A DNA stretch of 64,000 nt, from assembly GCA_029782355.1 (NCBI GenBank), contig JAKOUY010000011.1, positions 1 to 64,000 of the forward strand, read 5' to 3'. Each line of letters starts with the position of its first letter. Positions within the stretch are counted from its first letter, which is position 1. Below the pieces are notes generated by a model. It worked only from the letters and a program-made list of their open reading frames with translations. It was not told the origin of the DNA and searched no databases. Position numbers and translations under genes: made by a program. This stretch comes from Actinomycetes bacterium (GTDB lineage: Bacteria > Actinomycetota > Acidimicrobiia > Acidimicrobiales > Ilumatobacteraceae). Below, piece by piece: positions 16,657-22,845 of this stretch.

Positions 16657-17925
16657 TCAGCGGTCGCTCATCGGCACGTAGTCGCGGGTCTCGCTGCCGA
16701 CGTACCACTGCCGCGGCCGGCTGATCTTCTGCTCCTTGTCGCCCAGCAGCTCCTGCCAGTGCGCCAGCCAGCCGACCGTGCGGGGGATGGCGAAGAGCAC
16801 GGTGAACATCGCCACCGGGAACCCGAGCGCCTGGTAGATCAGCCCGGAGTAGAAGTCGACGTTGGGATACAGCTTGCGCTCGATGAAGTACGGGTCGCTG
16901 AGGGCGGTCTCCTCCAGCTTGAGGGCGATGTCCAGCAGCGGGTTCTTGCCGGTGACCTCGAAGACCTCGTCGGCGGTGCGCTTGATGATCTTGGCTCGGG
17001 GGTCGTAGTTCTTGTACACCCGGTGACCGAAGCCCATCAGCCGGCTGCCCGTGCCGCTCTTGACCTCGGCGATGAAGTCGTCGACCTGGTCCATCGAACC
17101 GATGTCGGTGAGCATCCGCACCACCGCCTCGTTGGCCCCACCGTGCAATGGTCCGTAGAGCGCCGCGGCGGCAGCGGCCGCCGACGAGTACGGGTCGGCG
17201 TGGCTCGAGCCGACGACGCGCATGGCCGTCGTACCGCAGTTCTGCTCATGGTCGGCGTGGAGGATGAACAGCACGTCCATGGCCCGCTCCAGGCGCGGGT
17301 CGATCTCGTAGTCGCCGATCCGCCACATCATGTTCAAGAAGTTGGCCGGGAAGCTGAGGTCGTTGTTCGGGTAGACGAAGGGCAGGCCCACCGAGAAGCG
17401 GTAGCACATGGCCGCCAGCGTCGGAGTCTTGGCGATCAGCCGGAGGATCTGCTTGTCGCGGCTGGCCTTGTCGTGGATGTCCTTGGCGTCGTTGTAGAAG
17501 GTGCCGAGGGCGGCGAGCGAGCTGACCAGCATGCCCATCGGGTGGGCGTCGTAGTGGAAGCCGTCGACGAAGCGCTTGCGCATGTTCTCGTGGATGAACG
17601 TGTGGTTGGTGACGTCCTGGCGCCACTGGGCGAGCTGGGACGCGCTGGGCAGTTCGCCGTTCAGCAACAGGTAGGCGACCTCCAGGTAGGTGCTCTGCTC
17701 GGCCAGCTGCTCGATGGGATAACCGCGGTACCGAAGGATGCCGGCGTCGCCGTCGAGGTAGGTGATCGCGCTCTTGCAGGCCGCGGTCTGCATGTACGCC
17801 GGGTCGTAGATGTACAGGGACGGATCGAGCTCGCGCACCGCGGTGGCCGGGAAGACGCCGCCGGTGATGGGCACGGTCACGGTCTTGCCGGTGCGGTCGT
17901 CGGTCAGCGTGATCGTGTCGGCCAT
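16657..17925 (-). CDS. gltA: Citrate synthase (type II)
   Basis: A 422-residue hexamer-type citrate synthase condensing acetyl-CoA and oxaloacetate. Motifs: ITYLDGDAGILRYRGYPIEQLAE near the N-terminus, HADHEQNCGTTAMRVVGSSHADPY, the catalytic histidine in YGPLHGGANEAV, GFGHRVYKNYDPRA and the catalytic Asp region NVDFYSGLIYQALGFP. Length matches E. coli GltA (427). It heads a minus-strand unit with the lipoprotein and molybdoenzyme genes. Upstream are TAGTGT and a 16-bp perfect palindrome between it and the start codon (see 17942). Confidence 0.97.
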   Translation of the reverse strand: MADTITLTDDRTGKTVTVPITGGVFPATAVRELDPSLYIYDPAYMQTAACKSAITYLDGDAGILRYRGYPIEQLAEQSTYLEVAYLLLNGELPSASQLAQWRQDVTNHTFIHENMRKRFVDGFHYDAHPMGMLVSSLAALGTFYNDAKDIHDKASRDKQILRLIAKTPTLAAMCYRFSVGLPFVYPNNDLSFPANFLNMMWRIGDYEIDPRLERAMDVLFILHADHEQNCGTTAMRVVGSSHADPYSSAAAAAAALYGPLHGGANEAVVRMLTDIGSMDQVDDFIAEVKSGTGSRLMGFGHRVYKNYDPRAKIIKRTADEVFEVTGKNPLLDIALKLEETALSDPYFIERKLYPNVDFYSGLIYQALGFPVAMFTVLFAIPRTVGWLAHWQELLGDKEQKISRPRQWYVGSETRDYVPMSDR

Positions 17926-17941
17926 GTGCGTCCCTTCGTCG

Positions 17942-17957
17942 CCGGGGAATTCCCCGG
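17942..17957. promoter_or_regulatory. 16-bp perfect palindrome upstream of citrate synthase
   Basis: CCGGGGAATTCCCCGG lies 17-32 bp before the citrate synthase ATG, downstream of a -10-like TAGTGT (minus strand, 17963-17968). The position suits a repressor site or a 5'-leader hairpin. It does not resemble the ACAAGT repeats of icd and aconitase. Confidence 0.45.
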
Positions 17958-18015
17958 GCAGGACACTACAGGCGGGTGCGTCAGCCGACCACGGCCGCCA
18001 CAGCGCCGCCCCGCA

Positions 18016-19377
18016 CTACAGCGGGCTGTTGTCGTGGCCGCGCCGGGCGAAGCGTTCGCGCTTGTCCTGCAGGACGTCCAAGGCGTTGGTGATCGCCCGG
18101 CGGGTCTCCGACGGCTCGATCACCGCGTCGATGTAGCCGCGCTCGGCGGCCACGTACGGGTTCAGCAGGCGGGCGGCGTAGTCGGCCTCGAACGCTGCCT
18201 TCTGCTCCGGCGTGGCCCGCCGCTGGAGGATCGCCGCGGCCTGCCCGGCACCCATGACGGCGAGCTCGGCCCACGGCCACGCCAGGCACAGGTCGTTGCC
18301 CATCCGCTTGGAGTCCATGACGATGTACGCCCCGCCGTAGCTCTTGCGCAGGACCACGCAGATGCGTGGCACGGTGGCCCGGCCGTAGGCGAACACCAGC
18401 TGGGCGCCGTGGCGGATCATGCCCCGCCACTCGAGATCCTTGCCCGGGTAGAAGCCGGGCGTGTCGACCAGGGTGAGGATCGGCAGGTTGAAGGCGTCAC
18501 ACGTGGCCACGAAGCGGGCGGCCTTCTGCGAGGCGGGGATGTCCAGCGTGCCGGCGAGCGCCAGCGGTTGGTCGGCCACGACGCCGACCGGACGGCCGTG
18601 GAAGGTGGTCAGCGCGGTGACCACGTTGGCCGCCCACCGTGGACGGAGTTCGAGGTACTCGCCGTCGTCGCACAGCGCGGCCACCACCTGGCGGACGTCG
18701 TAGCTGCCGGTGGAGCTGGGCGGGATGAGCGTGCCGGCCTCGGGAGTCGCTCGGTCGGGCGGGTCGTCGGTCGGCCAGCGCGGTGGTTCTTGGTCGTTGT
18801 TCGAGGGCAGGTACGACAACAGCTGGGCGACCGCGGACATGGCCGCGTCGAGGTCGGGACACACCAGGCTGGCCGCCCCGCTGTGCCGGGCGTGCATCGC
18901 CGGTCCGCCCAGCTCGTCGTTGTCCACCGGGACTCCGGTGAACTGGGCGACCATCGTCGGTCCGCTGACGAAGGCGTAGGACTGCTCGGTCATCACCACC
19001 GCGTCGGCCAGGCCGAGCAGCAGGGCGGGACCGGACACCGCCGGTCCGTCGACCACCAGCACCACCGGGACGATGCCCGAGCAGTTGGCCAGCGCCCGGG
19101 CGGTTCGACCCCAGCCGTGCAGGGCGCTGAACCCCTCGACGATGTCGGCGCCACTCGACCGGATCACCGCCACCAGCGGGATCAGCCCGGCGAGGGCGGT
19201 CTCGGCGGCCACGGTGAGCACCGCCGAGGCATCCGAGCTCAACGCGCCGCGCCGCTCGGTGCCGTCGACGTCGGCCACGACCACCGGGCGACCGTCGATC
19301 TGCGACACCACGGCCCGGGCCGCTCCGGGGATCTTCGCCGACAGCCGGACCTGACCGGGGGCCGCGGCGAGGCTCAT
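18016..19377 (-). CDS. Acyl-CoA carboxylase, carboxyltransferase (beta) subunit family
   Basis: A 453-residue protein with the crotonase-like N and C halves of biotin-dependent carboxyltransferases: VDGPAVSGPALLLGLADAVVM and the SFVSGP-like AFVSGPTMVAQFTG in the N half; GVVADQPLALAGTLD, KAARFVATCDAFNLPILTLVDTPGFYPG, GAQLVFAYGRATVPRICVVLRKSYGGAY and AELAVMGAGQAAAILQRR in the C half. It is shorter than PccB/AccD (about 510-540), lacking part of the N-terminal region, so specificity is unclear. No biotin carboxylase or biotin carrier gene is nearby. The ATG at 19377 follows the LysR stop by 10 bp; an in-frame start at 19407 is an alternative. Confidence 0.88.
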   Translation of the reverse strand: MSLAAAPGQVRLSAKIPGAARAVVSQIDGRPVVVADVDGTERRGALSSDASAVLTVAAETALAGLIPLVAVIRSSGADIVEGFSALHGWGRTARALANCSGIVPVVLVVDGPAVSGPALLLGLADAVVMTEQSYAFVSGPTMVAQFTGVPVDNDELGGPAMHARHSGAASLVCPDLDAAMSAVAQLLSYLPSNNDQEPPRWPTDDPPDRATPEAGTLIPPSSTGSYDVRQVVAALCDDGEYLELRPRWAANVVTALTTFHGRPVGVVADQPLALAGTLDIPASQKAARFVATCDAFNLPILTLVDTPGFYPGKDLEWRGMIRHGAQLVFAYGRATVPRICVVLRKSYGGAYIVMDSKRMGNDLCLAWPWAELAVMGAGQAAAILQRRATPEQKAAFEADYAARLLNPYVAAERGYIDAVIEPSETRRAITNALDVLQDKRERFARRGHDNSPL

Positions 19378-19387
19378 CGGCGGCACC

Positions 19388-20350
19388 TTAGCCGGAGGTG
19401 CCGCCACCCGATCCGGAGCGGGACGACAGCGGGAAGGCGCTGGCGCCGATGTGCACGCCGGGCTGATCCTTGGTGATCTCCGCCAGTGCTTCGCGCAGCA
19501 CGCCGAGCGTGGCGCGGGTGGCCGCGCTGGGGGAGGGTCGCCGGCGCTGCACCCAGACGACCACCCGCCGCGGCAGGTCGGCGATCTGGAAGCGGGCGGC
19601 GCCGGCCGGCAAGCTGCGCGACACGGCCGTGGCCGGCACGATGGTGGCCCCGAAGCCGTCGGCGGCCAGCGACGCCATCAGCCGGACCCCGTCGATCTCC
19701 GCCGCCGGCACCAGCTCGATCCCGGCGGCGGCGGCCGCCCGGTCGAGCACCCGGCGGAACGCCGCGCCCGCCGGCGGCAGGATCAGCGGTTCCCCGTCGA
19801 GGTCGCCCAGCGTCAGGTTGGCTCGCCCGGCGAGCGGGTGCCCGGAGGGGGCCAGCAGCACGAGGTCCTCGGCGAACAGCGGCTCGACCAGCAGGTCGGT
19901 CTCGTCGATCGGGAGGTGGACGATGGCCGCGTCGAGGTGGGCGCCGAGCAGCCGGGGGAGCAGGGTCGTCGAGGTGCCCTCGTGGATCAGCGGATGGACG
20001 CCCGGATGGTGGTGGCGCAGGGCGCCGAGCAGCGCCGGCAGCATCCACCGGGCGGTGGTCCCGATGATGCCGATGCGCGTGTCGCCGCGAACCTCGTCGC
20101 CGCGCGAGGCCATCTCCGCCGACAGCTCGTCGAGGTCGCGCAGGATTCGCCGGGCCCGACCGACGACGACCACGCCGTCGTCGGTCAGCCCGCCCCGCTC
20201 GCGGTCCACCAGGCGTACTCCGAGGTCGCGCTCCAGGCGGGCGACGTGGGCGCTGACGTTGGACTGCACCGTGTACAAGGCCCGGGCCGCGGCCGAGAAC
20301 GACCCGTGCTCGGCGACGGCGACGAGGGTCTCGAGCTGGCGGACGTCCAT
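19388..20350 (-). CDS. LysR-family transcriptional regulator
   Basis: A 320-residue LTTR. The N-terminal winged helix-turn-helix shows MDVRQLETLVAVAEHGSFSA and ALYTVQSNVSAHVARLERDLGVRLVDRERGG. The effector-binding domain (about residues 90-295) starts TRIGIIGTTARWMLPALL and includes LVEPLFAEDLVLLAPSGHPL. It is upstream of and probably cotranscribed with the carboxyltransferase gene. TATCGT lies 8 nt before the ATG on the minus strand (20359-20364). Effector and targets are unknown. Confidence 0.92.
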   Translation of the reverse strand: MDVRQLETLVAVAEHGSFSAAARALYTVQSNVSAHVARLERDLGVRLVDRERGGLTDDGVVVVGRARRILRDLDELSAEMASRGDEVRGDTRIGIIGTTARWMLPALLGALRHHHPGVHPLIHEGTSTTLLPRLLGAHLDAAIVHLPIDETDLLVEPLFAEDLVLLAPSGHPLAGRANLTLGDLDGEPLILPPAGAAFRRVLDRAAAAAGIELVPAAEIDGVRLMASLAADGFGATIVPATAVSRSLPAGAARFQIADLPRRVVVWVQRRRPSPSAATRATLGVLREALAEITKDQPGVHIGASAFPLSSRSGSGGGTSG

Positions 20351-20385
20351 CTGGAAAAACGATAGCGACCATCGCCACGAACAGC

Positions 20386-20414
20386 TTGAACGATCACAGC
20401 TTCACGTGCATACT
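20386..20414 (+). promoter_or_regulatory. Sigma-70-type promoter of the 6C-like RNA
   Basis: TTGAAC (20386-20391), a 17-nt spacer, then CATACT (20409-20414). This is one of few convincing -35/-10 pairs in the window and predicts a transcription start near 20421, eight nt before the first C-loop hairpin. Confidence 0.65.
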
Positions 20415-20420
20415 TTCACG

Positions 20421-20530
20421 TAGTTCGAGGCGCCTCGACCCCCAACGAGGTGCCCGACGAACCGACGTGGTTCCCCCAAACCACCAGGTTCCAGGTTGAG
20501 AGGCCCGGCTTCCCCCAAAGCCGGGCCTTT
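20421..20530 (+). ncRNA. 6C-like small RNA with three C-rich-loop hairpins
   Basis: Three successive hairpins expose a run of five cytosines. Hairpin 1, 20429-20454: 9-bp stem GGCGCCTCG/CGAGGTGCC, loop ACCCCCAA. Hairpin 2, 20467-20484: stem GTGGTT/AACCAC, loop CCCCCA. Hairpin 3, 20501-20528 (extendable to 20499-20530): 11-bp stem AGGCCCGGCTT/AAGCCGGGCCT, loop CCCCCA, followed by TT, which serves as the Rho-independent terminator. The 6C RNA of Actinobacteria is known for two hairpins with C-rich loops; the mycobacterial 6C RNA pairs through these loops with G-rich translation start regions. A promoter is correctly placed upstream. There is no good reading frame. The 6C family assignment is mine by structure; loops here have five, not six, cytosines. 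Confidence 0.78.
20499..20530 (+). terminator. Intrinsic terminator at the 3' end of the 6C-like RNA
   Basis: The third C-loop hairpin (11-13 bp, including AGGCCCGGCTT/AAGCCGGGCCT) runs into TTTCCC. It separates the RNA from the promoter of the following methyltransferase gene at 20548. Confidence 0.7.
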
Positions 20531-20547
20531 CCCGTTCTCCGCCTCGC

Positions 20548-20561: not shown

Positions 20562-20588
20562 ATGTCCGGACCACGAGACCGGCGGTGA
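20562..20588 (+). CDS. Candidate leaderless 8-residue upstream ORF
   Basis: ATG followed by seven codons (MSGPRDRR) and TGA. The TGA shares bases with the GTG start of the methyltransferase (GTGA). The ATG is 8 nt after TACCGT, so a leaderless ribosome could translate it and re-initiate on the main gene, which has no evident ribosome-binding sequence of its own. Prediction from spacing only. Confidence 0.4.
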   Translation: MSGPRDRR

Positions 20589-21388
20589 ACCGCTACACCC
20601 ACGGGCACGAGCCCGCCGTGGTGGCCGCGCACGCGGCGCGCACGGCGGCCAACTCGGCGCCACGGTTGGTCCCCCTGCTCCAGCCCGGCTGGTCGGTGCT
20701 CGACGTCGGCTGCGGTCCCGGTTCGGTCACCATTGACCTGGCCCGGCGGGTGGCACCGGGCCGGGTGGTGGGCGTGGACCGCTCGGCCGAGGTCATCGAG
20801 GCGGCGCGCCGCTCGGCCGAGGCGGCCGGCGTCGAGGTCGGCTGGTGGGTCGGCGACATCGCCACCCTGCCGTTCGACGACGCCTGCTTCGAGGTCGTTC
20901 ATGCCCACCAGGTGCTGCAGCACCTCGCCGACCCGGTGGCGGCGTTGGCCGAGATGTCGCGGGTGTGCCGACCAGGCGGGTGGATCGCCGTGCGCGACGC
21001 CGACTACGGGGCGATGACCTGGTACCCGGACCGCGCCGAGCTGTCCGACTGGCGAGACCTGTACCGATCGATCGCCCGGGCCAACGGTGCCGAACCGGAC
21101 GCCGGACGCCGGCTGCACCAGTGGGCCCGGGCCGCCGGACTGACCGACGTCGACGCCGGGGCGACGGCGTGGTCGTTCAGCTCGCCGGCCGAGCGCCGTT
21201 GGTGGGCCGAGCAGTGGGTCGCCCGGTTGCAGACCACGAGCTTCGTCGAGCAGGCGGTGGTCGCCGGACGGGCGAGCGCAGCGCGCCTGGCCGAGTTGGC
21301 CGGCGGCTGGCGGTGGTGGGCGGACCAGCCGGACGGATGGTTCCTGGTGCCCCACGGCGATCTGCTCGCCCGTCCCGCCCCCCGGTGA
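20585..21388 (+). CDS. SAM-dependent methyltransferase (UbiE-like class I)
   Basis: A 267-residue class I methyltransferase. It begins VNRYTHGHEPAVVAAHAART; the SAM-binding motif I is VLDVGCGPGSVTIDLA (residues ~40-55), the acidic post-I stretch VVGVDRSAEVIEAA, and motif IV/V VVHAHQVLQHLADPVAAL with the following RVCRPGGWIAVRDADYG. Closest in look to the UbiE/COQ5-type and actinobacterial small-molecule methyltransferases; the substrate cannot be assigned. The GTG at 20585 is chosen because upstream in-frame sequence overlaps the 6C-like RNA and has no conserved residues. Confidence 0.85.
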   Translation: MNRYTHGHEPAVVAAHAARTAANSAPRLVPLLQPGWSVLDVGCGPGSVTIDLARRVAPGRVVGVDRSAEVIEAARRSAEAAGVEVGWWVGDIATLPFDDACFEVVHAHQVLQHLADPVAALAEMSRVCRPGGWIAVRDADYGAMTWYPDRAELSDWRDLYRSIARANGAEPDAGRRLHQWARAAGLTDVDAGATAWSFSSPAERRWWAEQWVARLQTTSFVEQAVVAGRASAARLAELAGGWRWWADQPDGWFLVPHGDLLARPAPR

Positions 21389-21414: not shown

Positions 21415-22845
21415 ATGAGCCGACGCGGCGCCGCTTTCTTCGACCTCGACCGCACCCTGCTCGCCGGGGCGTCCGGTGAGGTCTTCGCCCGGGCGATGCG
21501 CGAGGCGGGGGTGACCAGCCGGGAGTTTCCCGGCGAGCGCCTCCTGTTCTCGCTGTTCAACACGGTCGGCGAGACCCTTCCGTCGATGCTCCTGACCCGC
21601 CAGGGCGCCCGGGTGGCCAAGGGCCGCCGGCAGGCCGACGTCCAGCGGGCCGCCCTGCACGCCGCCCCGGAACTGGCCGCCCAGCTCCAGCCGATGGCCG
21701 GGCGGCTGTTCGACGAGCACCGCCGAGCCGGCCGGCCACTGGTCCTGGCCACCACCACCCCATACGACATGGTCGCCCCGCTGGCCGACCTGCTCGGTCT
21801 CGACGACGTGGTCGCCACCCGCTACGGCGTGGCCGCCGACGGCACCTACGACGGCAGCCTCGCCGGTCCGTTCGTGTGGTCCTACGGCAAGCGCGACGCC
21901 GTGGCCGACTGGGCCCGGGCCAACCGCGTGTCGCTGGCCGACAGCTACGCCTACAGCGACAGCTTCTACGACGCCCCGCTGCTCGGAGCGGTCGGTCACC
22001 CGGTGGTGGTCAACCCTGATCCGCGGATGAAGGTGCTGGCCACCCTGCGGCGCTGGCCGGAGGAGTCGCTGTCCGCCTCGTCGGGCAGCGTGGTCATCCC
22101 GTTCCTCAACCGCGATCTGGCCAGCCTGTCGATGGAGCTGGCCAACCCGCTCTTCTACCCCTACGCCCGCTTCGATGTCGCCGGCAGCGAGCACATCCCC
22201 TCCAGCGGGCCGGCCATCCTGGTGGGCAACCACCGCAGCTACTTCGACCCGGCGGCGATCATGATGGCGGTCGGCCCGAGCAAGCGCTCGCTGCGGTTCC
22301 TCGGCAAGCGCGAGGTGTTCGACGCCCCGATCATCGGGCCACTGGCCAAGGCGGCCGGGGGCATCCCCGTCGATCGGGGCACCGGCAACGACGCCCCGCT
22401 GGAGGCCGCCCAGGCGGCCATCGAGCACGGCGACATCGTCGGCCTGATGCCCCAGGGCACCATCCCGCGGGGTGCGGCGTTCTACGACCCGGTGCTGCGC
22501 GGCCGGTGGGGTGCCGCCCGCCTCGCCGCGGCCACCCGTGCCCCGGTCATCCCCGTGGGCATCTGGGGGACCGAGCACGTCTGGCCGAGGTCGTCGCGCC
22601 TGCCACGGGTGTTCAACGTGCTCACCCCGCCGGAGATCCGCGTGCGCGTCGGGCCCCCGGTGGAGCTCAAGTACCGCAGCCCGGACGCCGACACCAAGCG
22701 GATCATGGCGGCGATCACCGCCCTGCTGCCGGCCGAGGCCCACCTCGCGCACACCCCGTCGGCCGAGGAGATCGCCCGGGCCCTGCCACCCGGGTACCAC
22801 GGCGATCCGACGGCCGAGCGCGACCGCCGCCCGGGCACCGACTGA
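21415..22845 (+). CDS. HAD phosphatase-PlsC acyltransferase fusion protein
   Basis: A 476-residue two-domain protein. Residues 1-210 are a SerB-type HAD hydrolase (DxD motif in AFFDLDRTLLAGASG, ATTTPYDMVAPLADLL, YSDSFYDAPLLGAVGHPVVVNPD). Residues 240-430 are a PlsC-type 1-acylglycerol-3-phosphate acyltransferase (NHRSYFDPAAIM is the HX4D motif, KREVFDAPIIGPLAKAAGGIPVDRG, MPQGTIPRG in the place of FPEGT). The same order is known in mycobacterial SerB2/PlsC fusion proteins of phospholipid or triacylglycerol synthesis. The HAD domain may dephosphorylate the phosphatidate made by the second domain; that coupling is inference. It opens the lipid gene cluster up to the desaturase. Confidence 0.88.
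   Translation: MSRRGAAFFDLDRTLLAGASGEVFARAMREAGVTSREFPGERLLFSLFNTVGETLPSMLLTRQGARVAKGRRQADVQRAALHAAPELAAQLQPMAGRLFDEHRRAGRPLVLATTTPYDMVAPLADLLGLDDVVATRYGVAADGTYDGSLAGPFVWSYGKRDAVADWARANRVSLADSYAYSDSFYDAPLLGAVGHPVVVNPDPRMKVLATLRRWPEESLSASSGSVVIPFLNRDLASLSMELANPLFYPYARFDVAGSEHIPSSGPAILVGNHRSYFDPAAIMMAVGPSKRSLRFLGKREVFDAPIIGPLAKAAGGIPVDRGTGNDAPLEAAQAAIEHGDIVGLMPQGTIPRGAAFYDPVLRGRWGAARLAAATRAPVIPVGIWGTEHVWPRSSRLPRVFNVLTPPEIRVRVGPPVELKYRSPDADTKRIMAAITALLPAEAHLAHTPSAEEIARALPPGYHGDPTAERDRRPGTD

Follow-up and report, generated by a model that had tools for sequence, protein, structure and literature searches.

What is encoded in the short interval between a LysR-type regulator gene and a methyltransferase gene in an actinobacterium of the family Ilumatobacteraceae (order Acidimicrobiales), and how does it relate to the 6C RNA of other Actinobacteria? 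The window analyzed here is the whole stretch of 64,000 nucleotides from this genome. A first-pass annotation of it had proposed that the interval carries a 6C-like RNA, with three hairpins that each expose CCCCC in the loop, a promoter in front and a terminator at the end. The features on which the following account draws are:

16657-17925, minus strand: citrate synthase gene (NCBIfam equivalogs above cut-off)
18016-19407, minus strand: carboxyltransferase gene of the acyl-CoA carboxylase type (Pfam Carboxyl_trans; the reading frame overlaps the end of the LysR gene, and its start codon is uncertain)
19388-20350, minus strand: LysR-type regulator gene, divergent from the RNA (Pfam HTH_1 and LysR_substrate)
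20361-20373, no strand assigned: inverted repeat GAT-N7-ATC (GATAGCGACCATC) that separates the start codon of LysR from the promoter of the RNA; presumed operator of LysR
20386-20414, plus strand: promoter, with -35 TTGAAC at 20386-20391, 17 nt, and -10 CATACT at 20409-20414 (from the sequence and the alignment of relatives)
20425-20457, plus strand: hairpin 1, with 3 bp, an unpaired A and 9 bp, loop ACCCCCAA (predicted fold)
20459-20491, plus strand: hairpin 2, with an outer stem (GAACC/GGTTC) and an inner stem (GTGGTT/AACCAC) separated by an internal loop; apical loop CCCCCA (predicted fold)
20498-20531, plus strand: hairpin 3, resembling a terminator, with a 14-bp stem that includes GAGA/UUUC and with loop CCCCCA (predicted fold)
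20528-20539, plus strand: interrupted U-tract TTTCCCGTTCTC, presumed transcript end (from the sequence)
20585-21388, plus strand: methyltransferase gene between the RNA and the HAD gene (Pfam methyltransferase domains; start GTG at 20585 inferred)
21415-22845, plus strand: gene for a fusion of HAD-IB hydrolase and PlsC-type acyltransferase (matches to Pfam HAD and Acyltransferase; TIGR01490 above cut-off)

Structure, conservation and strand of the RNA element

Three hairpins with CCCCC loops are present essentially where the first-pass annotation had placed them, with two changes to their bounds: hairpin 1 is longer and includes an unpaired A, and hairpin 2 gains an outer stem. The C-runs at 20439-20443, 20473-20477 and 20512-20516 each have an unpaired probability of 1.0 in the predicted fold, the energy of which is -63.3 kcal/mol against -35.4 +/- 3.6 kcal/mol for shuffled sequences (z -7.75; 0 of 200 shuffles as good). 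The promoter TTGAAC-N17-CATACT is also where it had been reported. It carries eight of the 12 consensus bases and so escaped a promoter scan that needed nine, yet its position is shared by the aligned relatives, and the family consensus reads CTTG..aGaTc ... GCAtacTTT. The third hairpin stands as well, its stem closing through GAGA/UUUC; the T-run said to follow it is interrupted and was not listed by a terminator scan of the plus strand of the window. In many relatives the tail is TTTCCCGTTTTC-like.

A nucleotide search of 61 genomes found matches in 34, own genome included, and 29 loci (L002-L030, window included) represent the same RNA; the match at L031 is not this RNA. Because the consensus of hairpins 1 and 2 was poor in a first alignment of 22 of these loci, a new one was started from six sequences and then extended to 28. 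An interim version with three spurious matches was discarded, and the pair counts exclude L010, a partial locus whose sequence starts within the RNA at the edge of a contig. With the 28 sequences fitted to the structure, pairing holds in 94.9% of 1070 cells, and double changes occur at 33 of 40 pairs (224 such cells); these counts lean toward the plus strand structure to which the alignment was fitted. None of 500 shuffles matched the paired cells, the double-change pairs or the double-change cells, and versions slid against the alignment reached at most 18 pairs. Compensatory change had been named as a test of the RNA in the first-pass annotation, and the element passes it in every hairpin: all 12 modelled pairs of hairpin 1, all 12 of helices 2-5 (hairpin 2) and nine of 16 in helix 6 (hairpin 3; six invariant) carry double changes in relatives. 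RNAalifold recovered the same three hairpins from six unfitted sequences, with double changes at 16 of 40 pairs.

Across the 29 loci the promoter region, the hairpins, a GGTTGAG linker and the tail are conserved, while the stems vary in sequence. In 19 of the 28 sequences the predicted fold exposes three C-runs of five or more; the remainder have shorter C-runs or a loop without one (e.g. L004, L013, L017, L021, L026, L027, L029 and L030). Loops of the window RNA hold five C; those of most relatives hold five to six, with fewer in some and more in other families. The structure of the RNA is thus conserved, with three C-loops that are predicted to be exposed.

Read from the other strand, these hairpins could instead form a 5' leader on LysR mRNA and display three GGGGG loops, for example for protein binding. 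Folding energy expresses no strand preference (the plus strand is more stable in 14 of 28 sequences), and the flg-Rhizobiales model (RF01736) matches the minus strand of the window at 25.6 bits (E 0.0017 for 251 nt), below its cut-off of 55. However, a conserved promoter-like sequence on the plus strand and the inverted repeat separate the element from LysR, so a minus-strand transcript must start beyond the RNA. The T-rich tail fits the plus strand, as do the G-U pairs: G-U cells outnumber A-C cells by 63 to 18, as expected for that strand, in an alignment whose fitting leans the count the same way. Three-C-loop arrays also occur away from LysR (L051, L053 and L059), and a leader of the LysR message is highly unlikely. 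We take the element to encode a small RNA of ~110-115 nt, transcribed from the plus strand and probably acting in trans.

Distribution, LysR partner and gene neighborhood

The strongest feature of the locus is one that the first-pass annotation overlooked, namely a near-strict coupling of the RNA with the LysR gene and a conserved inverted repeat between the two. The distribution of the RNA was followed with R3, a covariance model of the window-type RNA built without 6C sequences. Within Ilumatobacteraceae, R3 matches 169 of 200 genomes, 71 of 79 good genomes and 26 of 27 genera. Matches in a sample of the order occur in 21 of 298 genomes, 12 of them within the family, and those in a sample of the phylum in 19 of 296 genomes, comprising ten from the family, two from the order and seven from outside the order, the last all weak. 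Other Acidimicrobiales families yielded ten R3 matches in nine genomes, six of which are C-loop arrays; the other four (L050, L054, L056 and L057) look like ordinary terminators. Four loci were inspected among the seven genomes outside the order: three look like terminators, the fourth (L239) is ambiguous, and neither LysR nor HAD was found at any of the four. Relatives found by LysR alignment include Ilumatobacter nonamiensis YM16-303 (locus L133). Records titled Ferrithrix thermotolerans or Bifidobacterium breve (L086, L089, L094, L116 and L124) carry an Ilumatobacteraceae-type locus, and their titles therefore look wrong.

Of the 29 family loci, 28 have LysR next to the RNA and divergent from it, and the exception (L010) ends at a contig edge. 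The reverse search agrees: R3 lies just upstream of LysR in 78 of 80 LysR loci of the family, and at the two loci lacking it (L084 and L128) the LysR start is off the contig. Absence is shared as well. Among 20 listed of the 31 family genomes that have no R3 match, 17 have no LysR at E 1e-40, a threshold at which four of four positive controls were found; in two of the remaining three LysR is cut at a contig end (G143 and G110), and the third (G123) keeps a degenerate RNA. Five of the 17 genomes lacking both are at least 90% complete. This co-absence amounts to few independent events, because a single genus (g9) supplies 12 of the 17.

In the family, all 78 loci examined carry an inverted repeat, GAT-N7-ATC, no more than 75-80 nt from the start of LysR, and 61 of them have it as GATA-N5-TATC. 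The repeat is also present at 29 of the 30 best loci from other families and at 25 of the 40 further loci, compared with 104 of 2200 control windows taken at random. It is the presumed LysR operator. In other families a second motif, with the consensus AACtGTTgGACaGAT, follows it and overlaps the presumed -35 region. The LysR match at L146 and several from the order search contain stop codons inside the aligned stretch, probably past the natural gene end. The LysR protein itself falls below the curated cut-off in the 25 NCBIfam models listed of the 52 matched. It has no cysteine in the window and zero to two in 31 orthologues, and none of the invariant or near-invariant columns of an alignment of 22 sequences is a cysteine. 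OxyR and OxyS form a pair in which the gene of a LysR-type activator is divergent from the small RNA gene that it controls, and OxyR carries redox cysteines. The analogy with this pair was dropped, since a LysR without conserved cysteines is not an OxyR-type redox sensor.

Beyond the family the association loosens. A search with the LysR at L058, from a different family, matches 195 of 248 genomes of the order at E 1e-50. RNAfold predicts two or more C5 loops at 25 of the 30 best LysR loci outside the family, with three loops at 19. For a further set of 40 loci, chosen by hand at roughly even steps through the ranks of the matches listed, it predicts two or more at 21 and none at 14. Two or more such loops were seen in 0 of 548 control windows (one loop in six) and two in 2 of 350 shuffles. 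LysR also stands directly beside the HAD gene with no RNA between them (e.g. L224, L231 and L236). Coupling of the RNA to LysR is near strict in Ilumatobacteraceae and variable across the order, as these loci and the three-loop arrays away from LysR attest. Two such arrays, L051 and L053, belong to family f54, the latter adjoining apparent pyruvate dehydrogenase E1 genes (by eye); a C-loop array at L059 (family f53) follows an IMP dehydrogenase-like gene (by eye). The number of C-loops at the equivalent locus ranges from none to three in the order (L154, L159, L169, L172 and L173), a natural series for probing the role of the extra loops.

The genes around the pair recur to different degrees. 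Within the flanking DNA examined, a carboxyltransferase match lies near LysR at 78 of 80 family loci and 22 of 30 loci of other families, and citrate synthase at 67 of 80 and 8 of 30. A HAD-IB/PlsC match lies downstream of the RNA at 99 of 146 loci examined, a figure that counts some genomes twice and includes four short or weak matches (L152 and L161-L163). The first-pass annotation had set the RNA between LysR and a methyltransferase gene; the LysR neighbor is general, while the methyltransferase is special to the window (one of 29 loci), being absent within ~1.5 kb from the 28 other family loci bar a weak match of 25 residues in L008. This neighborhood suggests, from gene content, that the signal read by LysR may come from central carbon or acyl-CoA metabolism. 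The leader of the citrate synthase gene (17926-17995, minus strand; also L060-L139) holds a small recurrent hairpin of GGGGAGAAAGCCCC and GGAGGAGAAAGCCTCC types, which is GGGGAATTCCCC in the window. This leader was considered as a target of the RNA, its hairpin having a G4/C4 form in 40 of 72 loci, and was rejected: the G4/C4 hairpin is not specific, because other lineages carry GGAGG-type stems.

That the HAD gene lies downstream at many loci would also suit an element acting only in cis, a terminator and attenuator-like leader of the downstream transcript and nothing more. Against this, the downstream gene varies, as the methyltransferase of the window illustrates, while LysR persists; moreover, a terminator does not call for three hairpins whose loops all carry a C-run. 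We regard such a leader as very improbable.

Relation to 6C RNA

Searched with Rfam models at their own cut-offs, the window yields a tRNA as its only match, and the RNA family is not in Rfam 15. The 6C covariance model (RF01066), which the first-pass annotation had named as a check, does not support the assignment: at loose limits it gives 24.9 bits against a cut-off of 47. Nor is this cut-off reached at any of 55 distinct loci scanned, the best among the matches listed being L019 at 39 bits (three of the four scans listed matches up to an E of 1 only), and hence the RNA cannot be filed as 6C by the Rfam rule. A search of the whole own genome with the 6C model returned no match; it left the window site unreported too and is thus insensitive. 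Corynebacterium glutamicum, a control in the same kind of 6C search, was likewise below cut-off.

Other observations bear on a kinship of the two RNAs. The 6C model aligns hairpins 2 and 3 of the window with the two 6C hairpins, hairpin 3 presumably ending the transcript. RF01066 matches 20 of 246 genomes of the phylum sample, ten of them above cut-off and none of the 20 in Acidimicrobiales. At the 22 6C loci a HAD-IB homologue is adjacent in 14, including nine of the ten above cut-off, and in each of the four 6C genomes tested, which have two to four HAD copies, the window HAD matches best to the copy next to 6C. R3 scores at the 6C site in nine of the 22 loci at E<0.01. The best of these, L184 (37.5 bits, 1.2e-6), is an actinobacterial 6C locus above cut-off (66.9 bits; L184:1500-1605, minus strand) with a third, 5' C-loop hairpin, and it may represent an intermediate. 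A 5' C-run is also present at L185, just below the 6C cut-off, where it is predicted to be paired. LysR was sought within ~1.5 kb of the 22 6C loci and no match was found.

These likenesses could instead have arisen by convergence, the window RNA being a C-loop small RNA with no common descent with 6C, given that C-loop hairpins followed by a terminator arise often. The failure of every locus scanned to reach the 6C cut-off is in keeping with this, and the models of two unrelated alphaproteobacterial RNAs match about as strongly (ar14 at 36.4 bits in L008 and ar7 at 32.7 bits in L055). The sX13 RNA of Xanthomonas, as described in the source (PMC3771888), shows such RNAs arising elsewhere. The HAD gene is divergent from and upstream of 6C in 14 of 14 loci and codirectional with and downstream of the window RNA; shared synteny therefore requires a rearrangement. 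It is the recurrence of the same HAD gene beside 6C, and the three-loop 6C locus, that speak against independent origins. Convergence is possible and, in our judgment, rather doubtful.

Because of the HAD orientation and the convergence exemplified by sX13, common descent is to be put no higher than the likelier outcome, and the window RNA is on balance probably a distant relative of 6C. Of the name '6C-like RNA', the architecture holds and descent is probable, from the HAD neighbor and the R3 matches at 6C sites; membership of the Rfam 6C family does not hold. The accompanying statement that three loops extend the known architecture is correct in part, for the 6C locus L184 and, according to its description, sX13 already have three (PMC3771888).

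Proposed action and comparison with known systems

The explanation that we consider probable as a whole is that of a LysR-controlled, trans-acting C-loop small RNA, 6C-like in action and probably of shared descent. The RNA would be transcribed rightward from ~20421-20423 and end at hairpin 3. LysR would bind the GAT-N7-ATC repeat together with a site near the -35 box and thereby control, most likely activate, the RNA. Its inducer may be a metabolite linked to the neighboring genes for the carboxyltransferase, citrate synthase and phospholipid acyltransferase. Any of the CCCCC loops could then pair with G-runs at ribosome-binding regions and block translation, in the manner of 6C/B11 and sX13, the RNA representing a three-loop, LysR-coupled branch in Acidimicrobiales.

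The expectation that messages with G-runs near their starts would be repressed draws on what 6C/B11 and sX13 do. Either C-loop of B11/6C alone is described as repressing eccB4, the leader of which has six G (PMC10470900), and the terminator loop of B11 in Mycobacterium marinum as pairing with G-tracks near the ribosome-binding site (PMC12395582). For sX13, pairing with G-rich motifs near starts is reported (PMC3771888). G-rich ribosome-binding regions had been proposed as targets in the window genome also. A G5 run lies at -25 to +12 of the chosen start in 13 of 229 genes and in eight for a control interval (384 kb, crude gene call); such runs being few, no target set stands out, and no enrichment is claimed.

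A wider evolutionary reading is offered tentatively. Acidimicrobiales may hold an older, LysR-governed 6C system, in which LysR would read the state of central carbon or acyl-CoA metabolism and the three-headed RNA would lower translation of messages with G-tracts. Mycobacteria and Streptomyces-like lineages would have kept the HAD gene and lost the regulator and mostly the first C-loop, and the number of loops, from none to three in the order, could serve to adjust target range or dose. Should this older form be real, we know of no earlier LysR-small RNA pair of such a kind in Actinobacteria. 6C/B11 is a small RNA conserved widely among Actinobacteria; its core function is still treated as open in the sources at hand (PMC4046766; PMC9569102), and its inducers are described as undefined, with links to GlxR and the SOS response mentioned (PMC8628891). 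A probable relative of 6C that is linked with a single LysR gene, and with genes for citrate synthase, acyl-CoA carboxylase and phospholipid acyltransferase, makes the question of which signal drives a C-loop RNA directly testable. A literature search on 6C RNA and LysR found no such link, the LysR passage in the excerpts obtained concerning LysRS (PMC9569102); titles of open-licence PMC papers on Ilumatobacter small RNAs included no such study; and the titles and opening lines of abstracts of top-ranked open-licence PMC papers did not describe the window RNA. This silence is weak evidence of absence, since the search covered open-licence PMC papers only.

Among known systems, GcvA-GcvB of Escherichia coli provides the precedent for the arrangement of the genes: a LysR-type activator gene is divergent from the small RNA that it controls (PMC1557403). 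The same layout recurs here, with LysR adjacent and divergent and an operator-like repeat between both, whereas the RNA and the regulator are different ones. The closest counterpart in loop number is sX13, an RNA of 115 nt with three stems whose C-rich loops hold 4C, 4C and 5C; it comes from an unrelated bacterium and locus, its description mentions no LysR partner, and no common descent is claimed (PMC3771888). Three C-loops by themselves are thus not new. Three stem-loops with apical C-rich motifs are likewise attributed to ar7, an alphaproteobacterial small RNA (PMC3771888), whereas the matches of ar7 and ar14 are far under cut-off and concern another phylum. Scr3202 (RF02833), a Streptomyces model, shares the C-run loops and scores 18.2 bits in the window and 29.6 in L003, against a cut-off of 52.

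The nearest system is 6C/B11, which has in common with the window RNA the C-run hairpin loops, a last hairpin that serves as terminator and, at the 14 loci noted above, an adjacent HAD-IB gene. We take Rv3661 to be the HAD gene beside B11. In a review table B11 is placed between rv3660c and rv3661 (PMC8628891). The name 6C refers to two loops of about six C (PMC4046766), and B11 of M. marinum is depicted with three stem-loops of which two are C-rich (PMC12395582), whereas the window RNA has three C-rich loops, usually of five or six C. The window RNA further differs from 6C in its LysR partner, in having the HAD gene on its other side and in an Rfam score below cut-off. Its visible anatomy is 6C-like even where the Rfam 6C score failed, and what it adds to that anatomy is a LysR partner and a third loop.
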